This document shows positions 10,084-60,469 of a DNA stretch of 64,000 nucleotides, one piece after another (positions within the stretch are counted from its first letter, which is position 1; each line of letters starts with the position of its first letter). The stretch spans positions 1,922,001 through 1,986,000 of the forward strand of contig NZ_CP102382.1 in the NCBI RefSeq assembly GCF_024628805.1. Reading direction: 5' to 3'. The position numbers were made by a program, and so were the translations under genes. Source of the DNA: Paenimyroides aestuarii (GTDB lineage Bacteria > Bacteroidota > Bacteroidia > Flavobacteriales > Flavobacteriaceae). Below the pieces are notes generated by a model. It was not told where the DNA came from, ran no database searches, and saw only the letters and a program-made list of their open reading frames with translations.

Positions 10084-13000
10084 AAAGTAAAACCAATACC
10101 AAAACTCACTAAACTGTTTTCTTTGCTGGTGAATATACCTCCGTAAGCCGTAAAAGAATCTAAGGCATTTAACCATAAACCGCCGCCATAACTGTGGTAC
10201 CATTTATTGTTTGGGTTCCATTTATTCCATACCTTGCCCAGGTCGTATCCGGCATATAATCCATAACTCAAAGGCAATATGCCATTGGTAATATGTTTCA
10301 TTTTATAACGAATATCTTGGCTGGTTACAAACGATGTATCGCCCATAAAACGCTGTTGGCGGTAACCTCGTAAACCATTATTCGCACCCAAAGTAGCAGC
10401 TTGGTAAAATTTATAATCATTGCCAAAAACTTTCTCTAAGGAATAAGTAGAAGACCATGTAAGTTTTTTATTGTTCGAAATTGGCGTTACAAAATTTAAT
10501 TTGGTGTTTAAATACTGGTGTGTTTTACTAAAATCATCTACAAAGAAACGGTTTCCAAACAGCAGCATAAATCCTAATCCAACCGTAGGTTCTTGTGTGT
10601 TATCGTAATTCTCGAATTGGTATTTAATGCGTGTTCCCACAAAATCGGTTCGGGTGTAGGTATCGAATAAATTAATAAGCAGTTGCTCATCAATTAAGCG
10701 GTTATTGGTTTCTTCGATTTTAACAGATTCATACGTTGCACCAATTAAAAACGAACTTCCGTTGCGGCCTTTCCATTCGTAAGCCGGTTTTAGTTCCATT
10801 TGCGAAGTTCGAACTCGGTAATAATTATCTCTAAAAGCATCTTTATTATAGGTTGCTAAATTATCAAATCCAAAAAAGTTTCTGGTAAAGTTTGATGAAG
10901 TAGCCAATGCCTCTATATTCCAATAGCCTGTGTTGGAATAATCTTTAAAACTGCCTTTGTAAGCTGCAAAAATTCCTGATGTGGCAAAATTAAATTTAAT
11001 GCGTAGTTGATGCTTTTGCGAATATGGGTTTTGGTTGAATTTTCTAATAGTGTAAGTTCCGTTTAAGCCCAACATCACTCCGTTGTCGCGATTGTAACCA
11101 GCATCCGGCAAAATGGCTAAAATATTTAAAGGTGCTTTGCGGTAATCATATTGATTTAAATTGTATTGATCGCGCAACACCACACGTGCATTTCCTTTTT
11201 CTTCGATTGTAATTGGTTTTGATGCATAATCGAATATTTTAGTGTTTGTTTTTGAATTGATTTGATACACATCATGGTTTTTTCCGCCGACTAATTTTAA
11301 GCGAATTGATGATTTTTCTCCCGTCACTTTAATGGCATCATCATCGTCTAAACCATACACCCAGATTTCTTTTGTAGTTTTTGGATAATAAGTATAAGAA
11401 TGCATCAATGTATCGGTAGATTTTTTTGTGCGGTAATGCTCAATTGCTACTTTGTCTTTTGAAGTGTTTATAACCAATGAATCCTTTTTATTGGTTCCAG
11501 TAACAACGCCGTATTTAAACAATTCTTTGTAATATTTACCCGAAAAAGCAACTAATTTTGATCGGCGTTCTTTTAAAATTTCAATGATATCATCGCTGTA
11601 TTGGTTGCGGATTTCCTTAGGTAAGTTGTTAAAAGCATCTTCAATCACTTGATCGTTCATGCCTTTTACCACTTCTTCGGCGCTTTGTTGCCAATCTTGT
11701 AAAGTGGTGTTTTGAAGAAAAACTTTATCCAGCGGAAAAGCCGACTTGGTAATCCATCGTGGTTTGCCATAATTGCCTTTAAAATGTTGCATGTGGCGCA
11801 ACGGATTCAATTTATTTGCAAGCATGAGCAATTTTCCATCGATTTTTGCAAAAGCTTGGTCGCGGTCTCTTGGAATAGGCTGATAAATCACTTTGTGGTC
11901 GGTTTTTTGCTCCACCCAACGCCACTGATCGGCATGTCTGTCCCAATCGCCAATTAAAAAATCAAACATTCGGGCACGTAGATACATTTTAGTATCAACT
12001 TTATATTTTGCATCTTTTTCCAAATTCACAAGTAATTCTTGGGTGCTGATGATATCCGCTCCTTTTCCCAAAGAAGGAACATCTGCCTGCGATTTGTGTG
12101 GGCGTTCTTCAATCATATACAATTCGTTTCCATAAGTAGCATTGTATTTGCCCAGTGCATTTTGTTTGGGAACGAAATAAAGCTTTGGATTGGTGTGATA
12201 CAATTGCACCGCATCAGACAATTGACCTAAGATAAATGCCGTGTAGGGGTGAGAAGTGGTGTAATAATCATCGATAAAATCTAAAACATAGGTGTCTTCT
12301 AATTGATCTTCAATATAAGTGTCTTTAAAAATGGCCGATTGCAAAAACTGTTTGGAACTTTTACGCAGGCCCCGCATTACAAATTGTTTTCCGTTTTTAT
12401 CTTCTAACCATAACGACATTGATTGATTGCCACCACCTGAAATTACAGGTTTTAAACCGCCGTATAGTGTTTCCAAATTGGCCACATTTGCGTTTACTTT
12501 GGTTCCGTAAATGCTTCGGTAATGATTGCCGAAAAGAAATCTGTAAGTATTTGATTTCTTTGTAGCTTCTAATGGATAAACCGATGCCATGATTGTTTTT
12601 TCGGTGACTTCCGGAAAATTTGCCTCGTAATCATCCGGACACATAATGGTTTTCTTGAAAACAACTTCCTCACCCAATTCGGTCATTTTATGAAGAAACA
12701 CATCTACGTGATTGTCTTTGTAAATTTTTAAAGTGGCAAATCCCAAACTTCCGATGGAATAACTTGTTGGTTGCACGCTTCGTGCTTCTTCGATTTTTGA
12801 TCCGGCACCGCTAATGAGTTGTTTAATACCATCATTTTCGATATACTGCAAATTGTGTTCATGCCCCGAAACAAAAACCACTTGCTCTTTGTCTTTTGTA
12901 AGCGTTTTTAAGCGATCAATCATCATTCTGTAGTAGGTGTGTTGCGTATCTGCCGGACTTGCACCCGATGTTTTTCGAAGGTAGTTTGCAATACTTCCCA

Positions 13001-43163: not shown

Positions 43164-43220
43164 ATTTTTTCTAAGCAAAACTTGTATTTCTGTAAAATGT
43201 ATTACTATATAATGTATTTT

Positions 43221-43700
43221 GTAAAACAGAGATAACATCACTCCGCAAAATTCCCCCTTTGAAGGGGGACTAAGGGGGATGTAGTTTTTAAATGTATATT
43301 GTATTTCTGTATTTTGTAAAACAGAGATAACATCACTCCACAAAACTCCCCCTTTGAAGGGGGACTAAGGGGGATGTGTTTTTTAAATGTATATTGTAAT
43401 GTTGTGTTTTGTATTTCTGCAATAATGCAATTCATAAAGCAATTTGAGAAAAACTTTTAATCTGTGGTTGATTTGTTTAAAGTTTAAGGTTTTGTTTGCT
43501 GTATAGCGTATTAATGTATATTGTAATGCTGTATAATTTATTAATGTATAATGTTTATCGTAAAACAGAGATAACATCACTCCACAAAACTCCCCCTTTG
43601 AAGGGGGGACTAAGAGGGATGTATTTTTTAAATGTATATTGTATTGCTGTATCATGTAAAACTGAAATAGCATTATTACACAAAACTCCCTCTTTAAAAC
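43221..43700. repeat. repeat-filled intergenic region with four 95-bp units
   Basis: Units begin at 43221, 43316, 43560 and 43656 (the last decayed). Units 1 and 2 are directly adjacent (95-bp period); units 3 and 4 also (96 bp). Each starts with GTAAAACAGAGATAACATCA, then a hairpin of CCCCCTT and AAGGGGG around a TG loop, then GACTAAGGGGGATG and an AT-rich end. Between units 2 and 3 lie AT-rich bases including the 20-mer shared with 40330-40349. This explains the whole 653-base gap 43164-43816; no gene is credible. Confidence 0.9.
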
Positions 43701-43816
43701 AGGTTTCGGTTGATTGTATGCATCAATAGTTTAAAATAGAATTAAATTTTTCAATCATTACGGCGGAATCGCACGTATATTTATAATCTTTTTTAGTATC
43801 TTCCAAAAAAAAAAGT

Positions 43817-53329: not shown

Positions 53330-54670
53330 ATGCATATTCTTAGCAGTATATTATTTATAGCTTTAACCGCAGTAGGATTTGGTTTTTTTGCAAAAAATGC
53401 CAAAAAAATCTACCGCAATATAAAGTTGGGTCAACCAATAGATCGCACAGACAAGCCCGCAGAACGTTGGCGAAATATGCTTTTGGTAGCCTTTGGGCAG
53501 AAAAAAATGTTTGCAAGACCCATTCCGGCAATTTTGCATTTTGCGATTTATGCAGCTTTTATGATTACCCAAATTGAATTAATTGAAATTTTTATCGATG
53601 GAATTTTTGGGAAACACCGCATCTTCAAAGAATCATTAGGTGGTTTTTATACGTTTATGATTAGTTTAATCGAAATTGTTTCGGTTGCTGCGTTGCTGGC
53701 AACAATTATCTTTTTATCGAGAAGAAACCTGCTAAAGTTGCCGCGCTTAAACATGATAGAACTTTTGGGCTGGCCTAAAAAAGACGCCAACTTAATTTTA
53801 ATAATGGAAATTATTTTGGTGTTGTGTATTTTTACCATGAACGGAACCGATGAGGTTTTATACAACATGGGCAAATCGCATTTTGCAGGTCAAGGCTCGT
53901 TTAATTTTGCTATTTCGCAGTATGTAGGTCCTGCTGTTTTTGGCGCTCTTAGCGAAGGAACTTTACACGTTTTAGAGCGAATAGGTTGGTGGGGACACTT
54001 TATAATGGTGCTTTCTTTCTTAAATTATTTGTACTATTCAAAGCACTTACACATTTTGTTGGCTTTTCCAAATACCTATTATGCACATATAGAACCGCTT
54101 GGTGAGTTTGATAACTTAGAAGCAGTTACAAACGAGGTGAAATTAATGATGGATCCCAACGCCGATCCGTTTGCAGCACCAGCACCTGATGAAAATGCAG
54201 TACCCGCAAAATTTGGTGCACAAGATGTTCAAGATTTGAATTGGGTTCAGTTATTAAATGCTTATTCTTGTACCGAATGTGGTCGATGCACTTCTGCGTG
54301 TCCGGCAAATATTACAGGAAAAAAATTATCGCCGCGCTTAATCATGATGAAAACGCGTGATCGTTTGGAAGAAGTTGGGAAGAATATCGATGCCAACAAA
54401 GGAACCTTTGTAGATGATGGCAAAACGCTTTTGAATGATTACATAACCCCAGAAGAATTATGGGCGTGTACCACTTGTAATGCCTGTGTTCAAGAGTGTC
54501 CGATAGACATTAGTCCATTGTCAATCATTATGGATATGAGAAGATTTTTGGTTATGGAGCAAAGTGCCGCACCAATGGAACTAAACGCCATGATGACCAA
54601 TATCGAGAACAATGCCGCACCTTGGCAATACAGCCAAATGGATCGTTTAAACTGGAAAGACGAGAATTAA
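53330..54670 (+). CDS. membrane Fe-S oxidoreductase subunit
   Basis: A 446-residue protein with about five N-terminal helices (residues 3-22, 65-90, 102-125, 155-172, 205-245) and two 4Fe-4S motifs, CTECGRCTSACPANITG (about 313-329) and CTTCNACVQECPIDIS (about 383-398). This domain order resembles the membrane/Fe-S subunits of heterodisulfide-reductase-like or glycolate-oxidase-like electron carriers. The partner CCG protein follows 36 bases downstream. Electron donor and acceptor are unknown. Confidence 0.85.
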   Translation: MHILSSILFIALTAVGFGFFAKNAKKIYRNIKLGQPIDRTDKPAERWRNMLLVAFGQKKMFARPIPAILHFAIYAAFMITQIELIEIFIDGIFGKHRIFKESLGGFYTFMISLIEIVSVAALLATIIFLSRRNLLKLPRLNMIELLGWPKKDANLILIMEIILVLCIFTMNGTDEVLYNMGKSHFAGQGSFNFAISQYVGPAVFGALSEGTLHVLERIGWWGHFIMVLSFLNYLYYSKHLHILLAFPNTYYAHIEPLGEFDNLEAVTNEVKLMMDPNADPFAAPAPDENAVPAKFGAQDVQDLNWVQLLNAYSCTECGRCTSACPANITGKKLSPRLIMMKTRDRLEEVGKNIDANKGTFVDDGKTLLNDYITPEELWACTTCNACVQECPIDISPLSIIMDMRRFLVMEQSAAPMELNAMMTNIENNAAPWQYSQMDRLNWKDEN

Positions 54671-54705: not shown

Positions 54706-55497
54706 ATGTCAGAAAATTTAGTAGTGCCAACAATGGCAGAAATGATGGCGAAAGGCGAACAACCCGAAGTATTATTCTGGGTAGGTTGTTCGGGAAGTTT
54801 TGACGACAGAGCAAAAAAGATTACCAAAGCGTTTGTACGCATTTTAAATAGAGCCAATGTGAAATTTGCCGTTTTAGGCACAGAAGAAGGTTGTACCGGA
54901 GATCCGGCAAAGCGCGCAGGAAACGAATTTTTGTTCCAAATGCAAGCCATGATGAACATTCAAGTGTTTGATGGTTACGAAGTGAAGAAAATAGTAACGG
55001 CGTGTCCGCACTGCTTTAATACCATTAAAAACGAATATCCTGGTTTGGGCGGAACATATGAAGTGGTGCATCATACCGAATTTCTAAAGTCGCTTTTAGA
55101 AGAAGGCCGATTAACCATTGAAGGCGGACAGTTTAAAGGCAAACGTATCACTTTTCATGACCCTTGCTATTTAGGTCGTGCTAACAAAATTTATGAAGCT
55201 CCACGCGATTTGATCCAAAAATTAGACGCCGAATTGGTGGAAATGAAACGCTCTAAAGCCAATGGATTATGTTGCGGTGCTGGTGGTGCGCAAATGTTCA
55301 AAGAACCTGAAAAAGGTAATAAAGACGTGAACATGGAGCGTACTGATGACGCTTTGGAAGTGAAACCAAATATTATTGCAGCAGGTTGTCCGTTTTGCAA
55401 TACCATGTTAACAGACGGTGTGAAATTTAACCACAAAGAAGGCGAAGTACAAGTTTTAGACGTAGCCGAATTAATTGCTAACGCCCAAGATTTGTAA
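54706..55497 (+). CDS. CCG-domain Fe-S protein (HdrB-like)
   Basis: A 263-residue soluble protein with two cysteine-rich CCG-type modules: first CSGSFD, CTGDPAKRAGNEF and ACPHCFN (about 28-105), second HDPCYLGRANKI, GLCCGAGGAQMF and AAGCPFCNTM. These bind Fe-S clusters in HdrB, LutA and GlpC-like proteins. It follows the membrane Fe-S gene and probably forms a complex with it. The conserved pairing is known in Flavobacteriia, but its physiological reaction is not established. Confidence 0.85.
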   Translation: MSENLVVPTMAEMMAKGEQPEVLFWVGCSGSFDDRAKKITKAFVRILNRANVKFAVLGTEEGCTGDPAKRAGNEFLFQMQAMMNIQVFDGYEVKKIVTACPHCFNTIKNEYPGLGGTYEVVHHTEFLKSLLEEGRLTIEGGQFKGKRITFHDPCYLGRANKIYEAPRDLIQKLDAELVEMKRSKANGLCCGAGGAQMFKEPEKGNKDVNMERTDDALEVKPNIIAAGCPFCNTMLTDGVKFNHKEGEVQVLDVAELIANAQDL

Positions 55498-56097: not shown

Positions 56098-56580
56098 ATG
56101 TTGATACCTTTTGAAGAAATGCCGAAATCGGCTCGGGTTTGGATTTACCAATCAAATAGAAAAATGACCGACGAAGAGCTGGCAACAGCAAATGAAGTGT
56201 TGACTAGTTTTGTAGAAAATTGGGCAGCACACAGCACTCCACTAAAAGCATCGTATCAAATAAAATATAATCGTTTTATTATTTTGGCGGTAGATCAAGA
56301 GTACCATGCAGCTTCGGGCTGTTCCATTGATGCTTCGGTAAAAATCATTCAAGATTTAGAACAAAAATTCGGAATCGATTTATTAGATAAAATGAATGTA
56401 ACCTACAAAACAGGTGCATTCATCGCTCATAAATCATTAATCGATTTTAAGAAAATGGCAAAAGAAAAAGCTGTTAACGCCAATACCATTGTTTTTAACA
56501 ATTTGGTGAATACCATTGAAGAATTCGAAGAATTTTGGGAAGTTCCTGCTGGTGAAAGCTGGCACAGCCGCTTTTTTTAA
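56098..56580 (+). CDS. conserved small protein (often misnamed ABC transporter ATPase), function unknown
   Basis: A 160-residue soluble protein: LIPFEEMPKSARVWIYQSNR (about 2-21), ASGCSIDASVKIIQDLEQKFG (about 77-97) in shortened form ASGCSIDASVKI, and the ending EVPAGESWHSRFF. It has no Walker A, so the database name ABC transporter ATPase is not supported. The last 34 bases are duplicated at 58796-58829, 2.25 kb downstream; the copy here contains the real stop. The gene closes the Fe-S operon. Confidence 0.8.
   Translation: MLIPFEEMPKSARVWIYQSNRKMTDEELATANEVLTSFVENWAAHSTPLKASYQIKYNRFIILAVDQEYHAASGCSIDASVKIIQDLEQKFGIDLLDKMNVTYKTGAFIAHKSLIDFKKMAKEKAVNANTIVFNNLVNTIEEFEEFWEVPAGESWHSRFF
56547..56580. 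repeat. 34-bp direct repeat, left copy (3' end of the host gene)
   Basis: Identical for 34 bases to 58796-58829 and includes the stop codon of the host gene. Bases on both outer sides differ. Confidence 0.95.
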
Positions 56581-56600
56581 TTTAGAATCTCAGTTTATTT

Positions 56601-56658
56601 TTTAAATTTATAAAGTAAAAGACAGATTATAATCTGTCTTTTACTTTATAAATTTAAA
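56601..56658. terminator. 58-bp perfect palindrome, probable bidirectional terminator
   Basis: Every base from 56601 to 56629 pairs with 56658 down to 56630, giving a perfect 29-bp arm with no loop; the centre is AGATTATAATCT. It lies 20 bases past the host gene and five bases before the propeller gene's stop. Outermost bases are A/T, which would give T runs in both directions. Confidence 0.85.
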
Positions 56659-56663
56659 TCTTT

Positions 56664-57728
56664 TTATTTTACAAAAATACCCATTGCAGAACCAATATTG
56701 TTACCATCTGTAAGGCTAGTAGGTACACCATTTTTCCAGTATGTACCAACAGGATGTCCACTTGAATTATATATGTCTCCTGCAACATATACATCATTTT
56801 CTAAAACAAATATCGACACAGCTGCAGCATCTCGCTGACCATTAGTTAGTGCTGTTGGCTCGCCATTTTTCCAGTATTTAGCAATTGAAGGTCCTGTATT
56901 AGGGATACCTTCTCCACCAGCAATATAAACATCATTACCTGATACAAATATTGAATTCGCGAAGGCATTTAATGTACCGTCTGTAATAGAGACGACTACG
57001 CCGTTTTTCCAATATTTAACTACACTTGTGTAACCGTTATTTTCGTTTCCAGCTATATAAATATCATTACCAGAAACGAAAATAGATTTAGCAATAGTAT
57101 GTATCGAACCATCACTAAGGTTTATACCAATACCATTTTTCCAATATTTTGCTATTTCATTACCGTTTGGATCATTTTCGTATCCTGCAACGTAAATATC
57201 GTTTCCAGAAATAAAAATAGATTCTGCATAAGAACTGAACTTATTGCTTGGTAGTGGAAATTCTACACCGTTTTTCCAATAAGTAGCTACCGGAGGTGCG
57301 TTGTGATGTTCTTGTTTCCAGCCTGCAACATATATATCATTTCCTGATACAAAAATAGATGTTGCATTTGCGCTATTTTCTTTAGTGGTAAGCGAAACTC
57401 CTATTCCATTTTTCCAGTATTTTGCTATAGTTGTTTGGCCATCATGTTCTAAACCTGCTACATACACATCATTTCCTTCGACAAATATTGAATTCGCAAA
57501 CGCACCTTTATTACCATTGTTAATTGGAAACGCTATACTGTCTTTCCAGTAAGTTACAACAGCCGTTACTCCGTCAAGACCTCCACTTGTACCAACTATA
57601 TATACTGTTGGCGGAGGTGTTGGATCATCTTCAATATTAAGAACTTCGACATCAGTACACGATACTGCGTTTAGATATAATATAGATAATAAGGAAATAC
57701 CTAAGATCTTTGTTATGAAATTTTTCAT
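56664..57728 (-). CDS. lipoprotein with seven propeller-like repeats
   Basis: Start at 57728 (MKNFITKILGISLLSILYLN then the lipobox AVSC); an upstream ATG lacks a signal. The 354-residue protein has a Pro-rich hinge (DDPTPPPTVYI) and seven repeats of about 45 residues, each with YWKNG (YWKDS in the first) and a SIFVSGNDVYVAG-type strand pair. Seven copies of each mark, with the first blade opening VYIVG and the last ending GIFVK, suggest a seven-bladed propeller closed by its ends. Likely surface- or periplasm-exposed. It lies in the 2.25-kb insert bounded by 34-bp repeats. Ligand unknown. Confidence 0.78.
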   Translation of the reverse strand: MKNFITKILGISLLSILYLNAVSCTDVEVLNIEDDPTPPPTVYIVGTSGGLDGVTAVVTYWKDSIAFPINNGNKGAFANSIFVEGNDVYVAGLEHDGQTTIAKYWKNGIGVSLTTKENSANATSIFVSGNDIYVAGWKQEHHNAPPVATYWKNGVEFPLPSNKFSSYAESIFISGNDIYVAGYENDPNGNEIAKYWKNGIGINLSDGSIHTIAKSIFVSGNDIYIAGNENNGYTSVVKYWKNGVVVSITDGTLNAFANSIFVSGNDVYIAGGEGIPNTGPSIAKYWKNGEPTALTNGQRDAAAVSIFVLENDVYVAGDIYNSSGHPVGTYWKNGVPTSLTDGNNIGSAMGIFVK

Positions 57729-57830
57729 GAAATAGAGAGATAGAAAATTTGAAAAAAGGTTCATAAATGTTTTGTTTTTTTAGTTTTATAATATCTAGTT
57801 TTAGTTTATAATAATACTTTAACAAAAGAA

Positions 57831-57838
57831 CAAATTTA
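57831..57838 (-). promoter_or_regulatory. -7-like box for the propeller gene
   Basis: Minus-strand TAAATTTG matches TAnnTTTG but is about 100 bases from the gene start, so a long leader would be implied; no -33 TTG. Confidence 0.35.
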
Positions 57839-57922
57839 TTTTTTAAAATCAAAAAAAAAATCCTAGTTTTTAGTCAGCGCTTTTTAAATTTTATTTAATT
57901 TTATATAAAATTTAAAATGAAA

Positions 57923-58811
57923 TCATTGCAAATTTATTGTTTGATTTACATTTCTTTGATTTAAAAAAGTTTCATCGTGAGAAATTACTACTAAAGTACC
58001 TTGATAATCGTTAATTGCATTAGTAAGAATTTCTTTGTTTTGAATGTCGAGATTGTTGGTAAGCTCAGCTAAAATAATAATATCCGGCGATTCACTTCTA
58101 ATAGTCAAACAACATAACATTAACCGCATACGTTCGCCACCACTTAAAGCATTACAAGATTTGTCCCAAGTATTTTGAGGAAAAAGAAAACGATTCAATC
58201 TGATTTTCACTTCATGTTCCTCCAAGTTAAAAGCGTTGAACTGTTGTGCTTGTTCGTACACTTTCAAGTTGTTATTAATTAAAGAATAATCCTGATCTAT
58301 GTAAACCGATTTACTTTCTTTGTGAAAAACAGTTCCTTGTTGCGGTTGTAAATTATCTAATAATATTTTTATAAATGTGGTTTTGCCCGATCCGTTATTA
58401 CCTTTTACAGCAATACGTGATCCACTTAAAATTTGTATATTTAAATTGTTCTTCCATATAAAATCGCCGTTTTCATACTTATTAATTTATGTTTTCTGCA
58501 TTAAAAAGCACTTTACCTTTATGAAGCGAAGAATTGTTAAAGCCGAATTTCATTTGTTCGGTTTATACTAGAGTTGATCTTAAATCTTGCAGTTAGTCTC
58601 TAATACTTCCAGCTTTTTCTGTGTGAATACTTTTAAGCTTCGCCGTGCTGTTTTCGGCATTGTTTCGCAGTGTATTCATCATTATTTTAGTAACGCCTGA
58701 TTTTTCTTGTTTGCCTTTTCCTCTGCTATCTAATTTTTGCTGTCGTTCAATGGTTTCGCGTTCCTTTTCGCATGCTTTCTTCAATGCTTTTTCCTTGCTG
58801 GTGAAAGCTGG
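57923..58811 (-). pseudogene. truncated, broken ABC-F ATPase gene
   Basis: On the minus strand the reading begins at 58811, inside the right 34-bp repeat, so everything before the inter-domain linker (ABC domain 1) is missing. The linker (KEKALKKACEKERETIERQ) is intact to SIRD, then in-frame TAA codons interrupt (after SIRD and after RSTLV), and a shift of frame near NIN leads to the second ABC domain: KYENGDFIWKN, Walker A GNNGSGKTT, signature LSGGERMRLML, a changed Walker B (IIILAELTNNLDI, where LDEPTNN is expected) and switch His in VVISHDET. A non-functional relic of an antibiotic-resistance-type or translation-type ABC-F protein. Confidence 0.85.
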
Positions 58812-58829
58812 CACAGCCGCTTTTTTTAA
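58796..58829. repeat. 34-bp direct repeat, right copy
   Basis: Exact copy of 56547-56580. It cuts the ABC-F relic at its 5' end and is followed by a terminator that presumably once belonged to the host gene. Confidence 0.95.
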
Positions 58830-58837
58830 AAAAACAG

Positions 58838-58873
58838 AAAATCATCTTTAGTTATTTAAAGATGATTTTTTTT
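58838..58873. terminator. intrinsic terminator, 13-bp stem
   Basis: Perfect stem 58838-58850 with 58857-58869, six-base loop, T run on the plus strand. It lies directly after the right 34-bp repeat and 22 bases before the convergent serine-hydrolase stop. Confidence 0.85.
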
Positions 58874-58895
58874 AGCGTTCTTTTTTTATAAAAAG

Positions 58896-60236
58896 CTACT
58901 TTACTTTTACACACTTAATAGCCATTTTTCCTTGTTCCAACACCAGATTTTTTACTTTGTTGTTTTCCATTGTAAAAATCAATTTGCCTTTTGCATTTCG
59001 TAAAAAGAATGTGTTTGCATCCATTCGTTCCAACAAAGCTCTTTCGCCTATTTTTCCGTTTTCAAGTTCGTTCATAAACAAATAATTGTTTTCGGCTTCG
59101 GTGATTTCAAACTTTGCAATCGTTACTAAACCGGCAATTTTTGCTTTATATGTCCCTGTGAAAATAGCTAATTCAGGCTTGGTAACTTCCGAATGATAAA
59201 ATACAGGATATTCATATTTTTTGTCGAAATAAGCAGAAAGAATACCCACCATTATATCGTTGATGTTTAATCGCGAACCATTGCAAGTGATTGATAGATA
59301 CAAATCCTCACTCGGAAAATACAATGCAGCACTTTTAAACTCATCAATTCCACCCGTATGCCCCCAACCAATTTTATCGTAAAATGGTGCTTTAAATAAT
59401 CCGTGTCCAATTGCTTTGCTTTTTAGTTTTTGCATTACGGCAAGTGATTCGTTTGAAACTAAATCTCCGTGGAATAAGTGATACATTAATTTGTTCAAAT
59501 CACTTACGTTTGAAATGATGGCACCTGCTGCAAAAGGAAGGCTGGGATGCGAACTCACATCTTCAAACCAATCTTTTCCGTTAAATAAATACGATTTATA
59601 CTGCTTAATGTCTTGTTCATTTTCTGCAACGAAAGTCTTTTGCAATCCTGCTTTTTTCACAATACGTTCATCTATGTTTGTTGCATAACTTTTCCCCGTA
59701 AGGTCTTCAATAATGTATCCCAATAACACGTAATTTGAATTACTGTATGAACAATCTTTGTTGGGTTTAAAGTCGGGTTTTTCTTTCGTGATGATATTTA
59801 AAATCTGCTCTTTTGAAAAGTTTTGATTTCTTGTGGAGTAATAATTATCCCAAAAAGTAATATTGAAGATGCCGCTTGTATGTGAAAGTAAATTTTCAAT
59901 TGTTATTTGGTCAGCATATTTAATCTGAGGATAAAATTTGCTCAAAGGTGTTTGAAGTGTTAGTTTTTTTTCTTCAATCAATTGAAAAACAGCAATAGCT
60001 GTAAAAATCTTAGTGACAGAACCAACCCTGTATTGACCATTTTCTGCTTTTAATGGATTCGATTTATAGGAATACACCGTTTCATTCCCCTTTTTCATTT
60101 CTACCGTTCCCAAAAAAGAATTTTCTTTTGAAAGGTAATTTAGGAAGTTATTTACTGCAATTTTATTGCTATCCGTTTGTGAAAAACAGTTTGTTGTTAT
60201 CAAAAAACTTAATAAGATAATTGCTTTTTTTGTCAT
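58896..60236 (-). CDS. serine hydrolase, class-C beta-lactamase/penicillin-binding-protein-like
   Basis: A 446-residue exported enzyme (signal MTKKAIILLSFLITTNCFSQ). The beta-lactamase-related fold has SxxK in RVGSVTKIFTAIAV (about 72-85), YSNSNYVLLGYIIE as the YxN motif and GHTGGIDEFKSA as the final H-T-G motif. A C-terminal beta-rich domain (about 350-446) is typical for the wider family. More likely a peptidase or esterase than a true beta-lactamase; the substrate is unknown. No promoter identified in the 264 bases up to the next gene. Confidence 0.85.
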   Translation of the reverse strand: MTKKAIILLSFLITTNCFSQTDSNKIAVNNFLNYLSKENSFLGTVEMKKGNETVYSYKSNPLKAENGQYRVGSVTKIFTAIAVFQLIEEKKLTLQTPLSKFYPQIKYADQITIENLLSHTSGIFNITFWDNYYSTRNQNFSKEQILNIITKEKPDFKPNKDCSYSNSNYVLLGYIIEDLTGKSYATNIDERIVKKAGLQKTFVAENEQDIKQYKSYLFNGKDWFEDVSSHPSLPFAAGAIISNVSDLNKLMYHLFHGDLVSNESLAVMQKLKSKAIGHGLFKAPFYDKIGWGHTGGIDEFKSAALYFPSEDLYLSITCNGSRLNINDIMVGILSAYFDKKYEYPVFYHSEVTKPELAIFTGTYKAKIAGLVTIAKFEITEAENNYLFMNELENGKIGERALLERMDANTFFLRNAKGKLIFTMENNKVKNLVLEQGKMAIKCVKVK

Positions 60237-60469
60237 TTTTTCAAAATAATTTCAACTATACTAAACGGTAGTAAAGTTACTTTTTTTTAGGAAAAAACAA
60301 ATTAGAAGAAAAAAATATGAAATGTATCTTTCTGTTGAATATTAAGGTATCGTTTTTGGTAAACCATTATCCCTGCTTCAAAAGAATATTTTCTTGTATA
60401 AAGTGGTAGGTGGTTTGTTTTTTAACGCAAAATTCCGAATTATAATTATTAAAATCGTAGCTAAAACAT

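Follow-up and report, generated by a model that had tools for sequence, protein, structure and literature searches.

Genomic islands at gene 3' ends are characterized by a direct repeat of the gene end, a gene that is kept whole, and a clean empty site. Products of homology-facilitated illegitimate recombination (HFIR), as reported in PMC3240628, contain foreign DNA with one border formed by homology and the other mostly via microhomology of 3-10 bp, and usually show a deletion in the recipient. A HFIR-like process has been proposed for the type VI secretion clusters of Vibrio cholerae, where an incoming module anchored upstream displaces the old gene end (PMC5361080). Small variable segments and integrase-free hotspots, as described in PMC2884548 and PMC5635113, hold cargo between conserved neighbours, with recombination at the flanking core genes. 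The locus described here lies in a window of 64,000 bp (the whole stretch of DNA that was analysed, genome positions 1922001-1986000) and resembles the genomic islands in its gene-end repeat, whole gene, and clean empty site, but differs from them in having no PF00589 integrase nearby, in a right end that lies inside a gene, and in the existence of a relative (L033) that carries the cargo without the repeat. Its features, in order along the window, are:

56098..56580, + strand: host gene, encoding a conserved 160-aa protein, with a match in 61/61 genus genomes
56547..56580, + strand: repeat copy 1, the end of the host gene (34 bases, stop codon included)
56601..56658, no strand: perfect palindrome of 58 bp between convergent genes (RNA fold -30.9 kcal/mol, z -10.0)
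56664..57764, - strand: predicted propeller-like lipoprotein gene with an intact reading frame and repeats of 132-138 bp, part of the acquired block
57926..58800, - strand: back half of an ABC-F ATPase gene, a remnant that carries a frameshift and two in-frame stops
58796..58800, + strand: TGCTG, five bases common to ABC-F and the host-gene tail, the proposed illegitimate joint
58796..58829, + strand: repeat copy 2, the displaced host-gene tail, an exact copy 2249 bp on
58836..58871, no strand: probable original host-gene terminator, now behind copy 2, a hairpin with a T run (fold z -5.07)
58874..60419, no strand: second, separate addition with a serine-hydrolase gene, lying after the displaced terminator and before the GH3 gene
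58896-60236, - strand: serine-hydrolase (beta-lactamase-fold) gene, PF00144
60493..63381, + strand: right-hand core neighbour, a glycoside hydrolase family 3 plus beta-lactamase-fold protein (GH3 gene)

The host gene was matched in every one of the 61 genus genomes drawn, own genome counted and G033 matching only partially, and is thus a core gene, in agreement with the conservation noted in the first-pass annotation. It has no Pfam or NCBIfam family at E 0.001, and its closest named relatives are mostly Paenimyroides. The exact repetition of its last 34 bases, stop included, is confirmed by the sequence and by a search of the complete genome of 2,961,016 bp, where with up to 3 mismatches allowed the repeat occurs at two sites, and the reversed control pattern gives 0 matches. 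A general repeat family, which the first-pass annotation had named as a condition that would overturn its reading, is ruled out by these two sole genomic sites. Gene ends that are exactly repeated downstream were found for 2 of 1,791 ORFs, namely this host gene and one in L057, in a scan of 1,667,660 bases (the window, 80/80 relative loci, and six stretches from four other genomes) in which ORFs of at least 100 aa were tested with a 20-base seed near the stop, simple-sequence seeds were skipped, and the repeat was sought 200-12,000 bp downstream. The case in L057 (19166-19546, read on the - strand) is a 127-codon ORF whose end is covered by an 89-bp exact repeat that occurs again 478 bp further.

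An empty site, with the gene running straight into the terminator and a single repeat copy, had been predicted and is present in the sister genome G173, where the host gene is followed at once by the terminator and the GH3 gene, with one tail copy and with no propeller gene, ABC-F remnant, or serine hydrolase at the locus. Neither a propeller match at E 1e-20 nor an ABC-F match at E 1e-60 was found in the G173 genome. The flanks of G173 and the window are 97.1% and 97.7% identical, and the two are sisters in 2/2 flank trees (support 1.000) with L033 outside. For 44 bases past the stop codon, copy 2 and the host gene of G173 continue identically, and compared with G173 no bases are missing from copy 2 and its terminator. 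The good terminator behind copy 2 (z -5.07) is very probably the host gene's original one, as first proposed, a reading based on its match to the terminator directly behind the gene in G173. The part of the first-pass reading by which DNA stands at the 3' end of the host gene, and that gene is whole, is supported.

A metagenome-assembled genome, L033 (labelled Myroides sp.), carries the counterpart of the inserted block; the order there is host gene, palindrome, propeller gene, intact ABC-F gene, MepB-like gene, and GH3 gene. At the left junction the bases past the host stop align with L033, and those behind copy 2 align with G173. The 58-bp palindrome, confirmed at 56601-56658, has an imperfect counterpart at the same position in L033 and is probably the two-way terminator of the acquired block. 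The adjacent gene is read from its sequence as encoding a lipoprotein with a propeller-like fold, and its product shares 85% amino acid identity with that of the L033 gene at the same place. The ABC-F counterparts are intact, at 542 aa, in both L033 and L036 (P. baculatum), and the window block is therefore cut inside ABC-F. The ABC-F gene is indeed broken, as the first-pass annotation had stated: its front half is gone, and the remainder differs from L033 by one single-base insertion, which shifts the frame, and two in-frame stops. Changes unique to the window fall at first or second codon positions in 32 of 70 cases (L033, 15/43; L036, 10/51), and the remnant is decaying. It is the sole match to its family in its own genome at E 1e-60.

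At the right-hand joint the window tracks the ABC-F genes of L033 and L036 up to TTGCTG and, followed from the other side, tracks the host gene back to TGCTG, which also constitutes the first bases of the 34-bp tail. An overlap of at least 5 bases arises in 0.8% of 200,000 random joints between ABC-F and the host gene. The surroundings of the joint are alike when gaps are admitted (TTCCTTGCTGTGAA in L033 vs TTCCTGCTGGTGAA in the host gene).

Judging from a comparison of one genome per species, the interval from the host gene to the GH3 gene has the look of a variable locus that is flanked by core genes and is free of integrases. The distance between the two genes is below 400 bp in 66 of 85 loci and larger in 9, and the remaining 10, including the close relatives L035, L038, G261, and G083, showed no GH3 gene on the examined stretch. 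The window has a gap of about 3,913 bp, L033 one of 3,681, G276 one of 2,402, and L036 one of 2,383, with shorter versions in L037 (1,418 bp), L034 (819), and G173 (139), and the cargo differs among L033, L034, L036, L037, and G276. That of L036 consists of the intact ABC-F gene and a 166-aa gene resembling the MepB-like one, without the propeller gene. Homology resumes at window positions 60417-60420 in L033, L034, L036, L037, G173, and G276, and at 60445 in L039 and L040. A second tail copy in the same direction was found in 0 of 80 relative loci, L033 included, at a threshold of 27 of 40 bases and a reach of up to 10 kb downstream, often less; the relatives thus do not share the doubled tail, whose presence in all of them, together with the propeller gene, the first-pass annotation had named as grounds for refuting its reading. 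One inverted tail match at the bare 27/40 threshold (L034, 13310) is taken as chance. In G276 the same gap (L157, 2816-5001) is filled by a tandem pair of closely similar genes that carry type IX secretion sorting tails. In L034 about 200 bp (10484-10690), perhaps a leftover of an earlier exchange, separate the host stop from a terminator that resembles the one at window 58836-58871.

Divergence at third codon positions bears on the origin of the block. Between the window and L033 this divergence is 0.175 for the propeller gene and 0.270 for the ABC-F remnant, compared with 0.343, 0.449, 0.492, 0.294, and 0.415 for five core genes, the value of 0.294 belonging to the host gene. The block is missing from G173, and the propeller gene is clearly, the ABC-F remnant barely, closer to L033 than the core genes are. 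The propeller divergence points to horizontal entry. The ABC-F evidence for a horizontal origin is weak, because the remnant diverges scarcely less than the host gene does and its placement in a tree has no support (0.006). Between the window and L036 the values are 0.315 for ABC-F and 0.319 for the host gene, and between L033 and L036 ABC-F stands at 0.280 vs 0.068-0.206 in four core genes. No conspecific genome of the window species was found, and none of the 40 proteins compared with the remnant, out of 120 ABC-F proteins listed, stood out as the window species' own. In a protein search with the propeller the best identity among the 120 matches listed was 48%, its own protein and the L033 copy not being among them. 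Within 299 genus genomes, own included, the propeller has a match at E 1e-30 in 23 and the serine hydrolase at E 1e-40 in 105; apart from their own copies, these matches reach at most 52-55% identity over part of the propeller and at most 50% for the hydrolase. A phage origin of the block was rejected after 0 matches among 50,697 phage records, as was a plasmid origin, 3 of 72,556 plasmid records matching, all from Empedobacter and in the ABC-F part alone at about 70%.

The reading that we favour, and consider fairly likely, is that the locus is a hybrid of two locus versions, formed when the two paired through homology at the gene end and were joined illegitimately within ABC-F. Of the three options offered in the first-pass annotation the data favour the third, recombination between short homologies. 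An L033-type version would have met an empty version, and a 2.2-kb piece of a related bacterium's version, comprising the propeller gene and the back half of ABC-F, would have been spliced in without an integrase. The left border would lie where incoming and resident DNA share homology, at the end of the host gene, and the right border, inside ABC-F and without homology, would have been closed illegitimately at TGCTG. With a gene end and a terminator (the 58-bp palindrome) supplied by the incoming DNA, the host gene would have stayed whole, and the tail and terminator of the resident version would have come to lie 2,249 bp downstream, as copy 2 and its flank. Such a course of events follows the pattern of HFIR (PMC3240628). 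The order of events, the homologous pairing at the left border, and the route of entry are parts of this scenario that we infer, the ground for homology at the left border being collinearity with L033 rather than a donor tract. Natural transformation is a possible route. ComEC-type and DprA-type genes are present in the genome, and DNA uptake by the window species is plausible; within Flavobacteriaceae two Riemerella species are reported to be naturally competent, whereas under those conditions Flavobacterium johnsoniae showed no competence (PMC7965970).

Several observations bear on whether such a hybrid arose in one step from the L033 side. After a one-step transfer, the host gene should carry donor-type changes as far as the crossover, and the gene is instead G173-like (19/483 differences), with no L033-like tract seen in it and no divergent donor tract seen in the left flank relative to G173 in 500-bp bins. 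Moreover, both tail copies carry the same three synonymous changes, which are missing in G173 and L033; therefore the tails either matched from the outset, as with a donor of the same species, or became identical afterwards. The identical tails could thus reflect a conspecific donor with a circulating long version, later homogenisation, or entry of a circle by a single crossover. At the three sites G173 has the older state in 3/3 by majority rule over eight relatives, and the window's state occurs in one or two of the eight, depending on the site. The clustering of 3 window-derived changes in the tail (majority rule), where 0.6 are expected, corresponds to a Poisson P of 0.024 for a region picked post hoc and is not pressed because it was chosen after the fact. 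A further observation against the HFIR reading is that the usual deletion in the recipient is absent and a short duplication is present instead.

Entry as a circle, the last of these options, would mean that the block was excised from the donor chromosome through a join between TGCTG in ABC-F and TGCTG in the host-gene tail, and that the circle, with the 34-bp tail on it, entered by one crossover in that tail, thereby duplicating it. The L033-like DNA is apparently confined between the two copies and the host gene lacks a donor-like tract, both as expected for a circle, and in an E. coli conjugation assay most of 60 clones were reported to be duplications ascribed to re-circularised molecules, compared with 4/60 for HFIR (PMC3240628). 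The pairing length would, however, be only 34 bp, close to the threshold of 30 bp given for E. coli (PMC2884548), and a crossover between unlike tails should give mosaic copies, whereas those of the window are identical; we consider this route unlikely, though deserving of weight. Its broader version, in which circles pair via a core gene's short tail, bring a terminator, duplicate the tail, and thus become precisely removable as self-made pseudo-attachment sites, is distinctly unlikely; if true, it would amount to site-specific behaviour without any recombinase. A block ancestral to both the window species and G173, already flanked by both copies and later removed from G173 through a deletion from one 34-bp repeat to the other, would yield exactly the site of G173 and agrees with an ABC-F divergence from L033 close to that of the host gene. 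Such a loss is nevertheless improbable, given that G173 has the majority state at all three tail sites and that the propeller gene is nearer to L033 than the core is.

Least probable is insertion by site-specific recombination, with the 34-bp repeats as attachment sites of a small element that has lost its integrase, although a repeat at the 3' end of a gene, a whole gene, and a clean empty site are what it predicts. L033 has the same left junction and propeller gene with no right-hand copy, which mostly refutes it, and the right end falls within ABC-F, which is whole in L033 and L036; the tail copy, moreover, is found in none of the 80 relatives. The statement in the first-pass annotation that no integrase is present held for the PF00589 family, which gave 0 matches in the window; its three matches in the genome (at 1519496, 2200034, and 2211838) all lie outside the window, the nearest more than 200 kb from the element. 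The likeness to site-specific elements drawn in that annotation is thus not borne out, and an integrase island is rejected on the L033 arrangement, the cut ABC-F gene, and, for PF00589 only, the integrase positions.

The serine-hydrolase addition is missing at the same place in G173 and L033, and the closest other protein is 83% identical to the hydrolase. The displaced terminator now lies just behind the serine-hydrolase gene and may serve it. Elsewhere, window 43190-43725 comprises about 536 bp vs about 36 bp in G173 and may be an array of short interspersed repeats, because PPSKGEFCGVMLSLFY words occur in three reading frames. The megablast alignment with 58 kb of G173 starts at window ~29848, and about 17 kb more of G173 lies on that side, so that the start may mark a gene-order break, a large insertion, or strong divergence. 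For the gene at 54706-55497 third-position divergence of L034 is 0.300 from the window vs 0.445 from L033, and L034 is nearer L033 in the genes at 53330-54670 and 56098-56580; at a distance of about 1 kb from the variable locus, an exchange thus seems to have affected the flank of the L033/L036 group.

A direct repeat of a gene end, commonly taken as the mark of an integrase, can plausibly arise through recombination alone, and where islands are annotated from gene-end repeats, relatives should be checked for the repeat before it is called an attachment site. No paper was found by title on this kind of event, and its absence from print is not claimed. The locus resembles the HFIR products described in PMC3240628 in an illegitimate border with microhomology, of 5 bp here, but the usual products lose recipient DNA, whereas here 34 bp of the gene end are present twice. 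The type VI secretion clusters of Vibrio cholerae (PMC5361080) share with it a module anchored at a conserved upstream stretch and a gene end pushed downstream; there, however, the effector gives way to a new one and immunity genes remain, whereas here the host gene is whole and just 34 bp and the terminator are displaced. The integrase-free hotspots (PMC2884548, PMC5635113) are alike in holding variable cargo between conserved neighbours without recognised mobile-element genes, although the present case is one locus, followed in one genome per species. Set beside these systems, the locus appears to be a tidy but unexceptional relic of gene exchange, and it is a fresh example of a known recombination product for which the empty, donor-type, and hybrid forms are all at hand.
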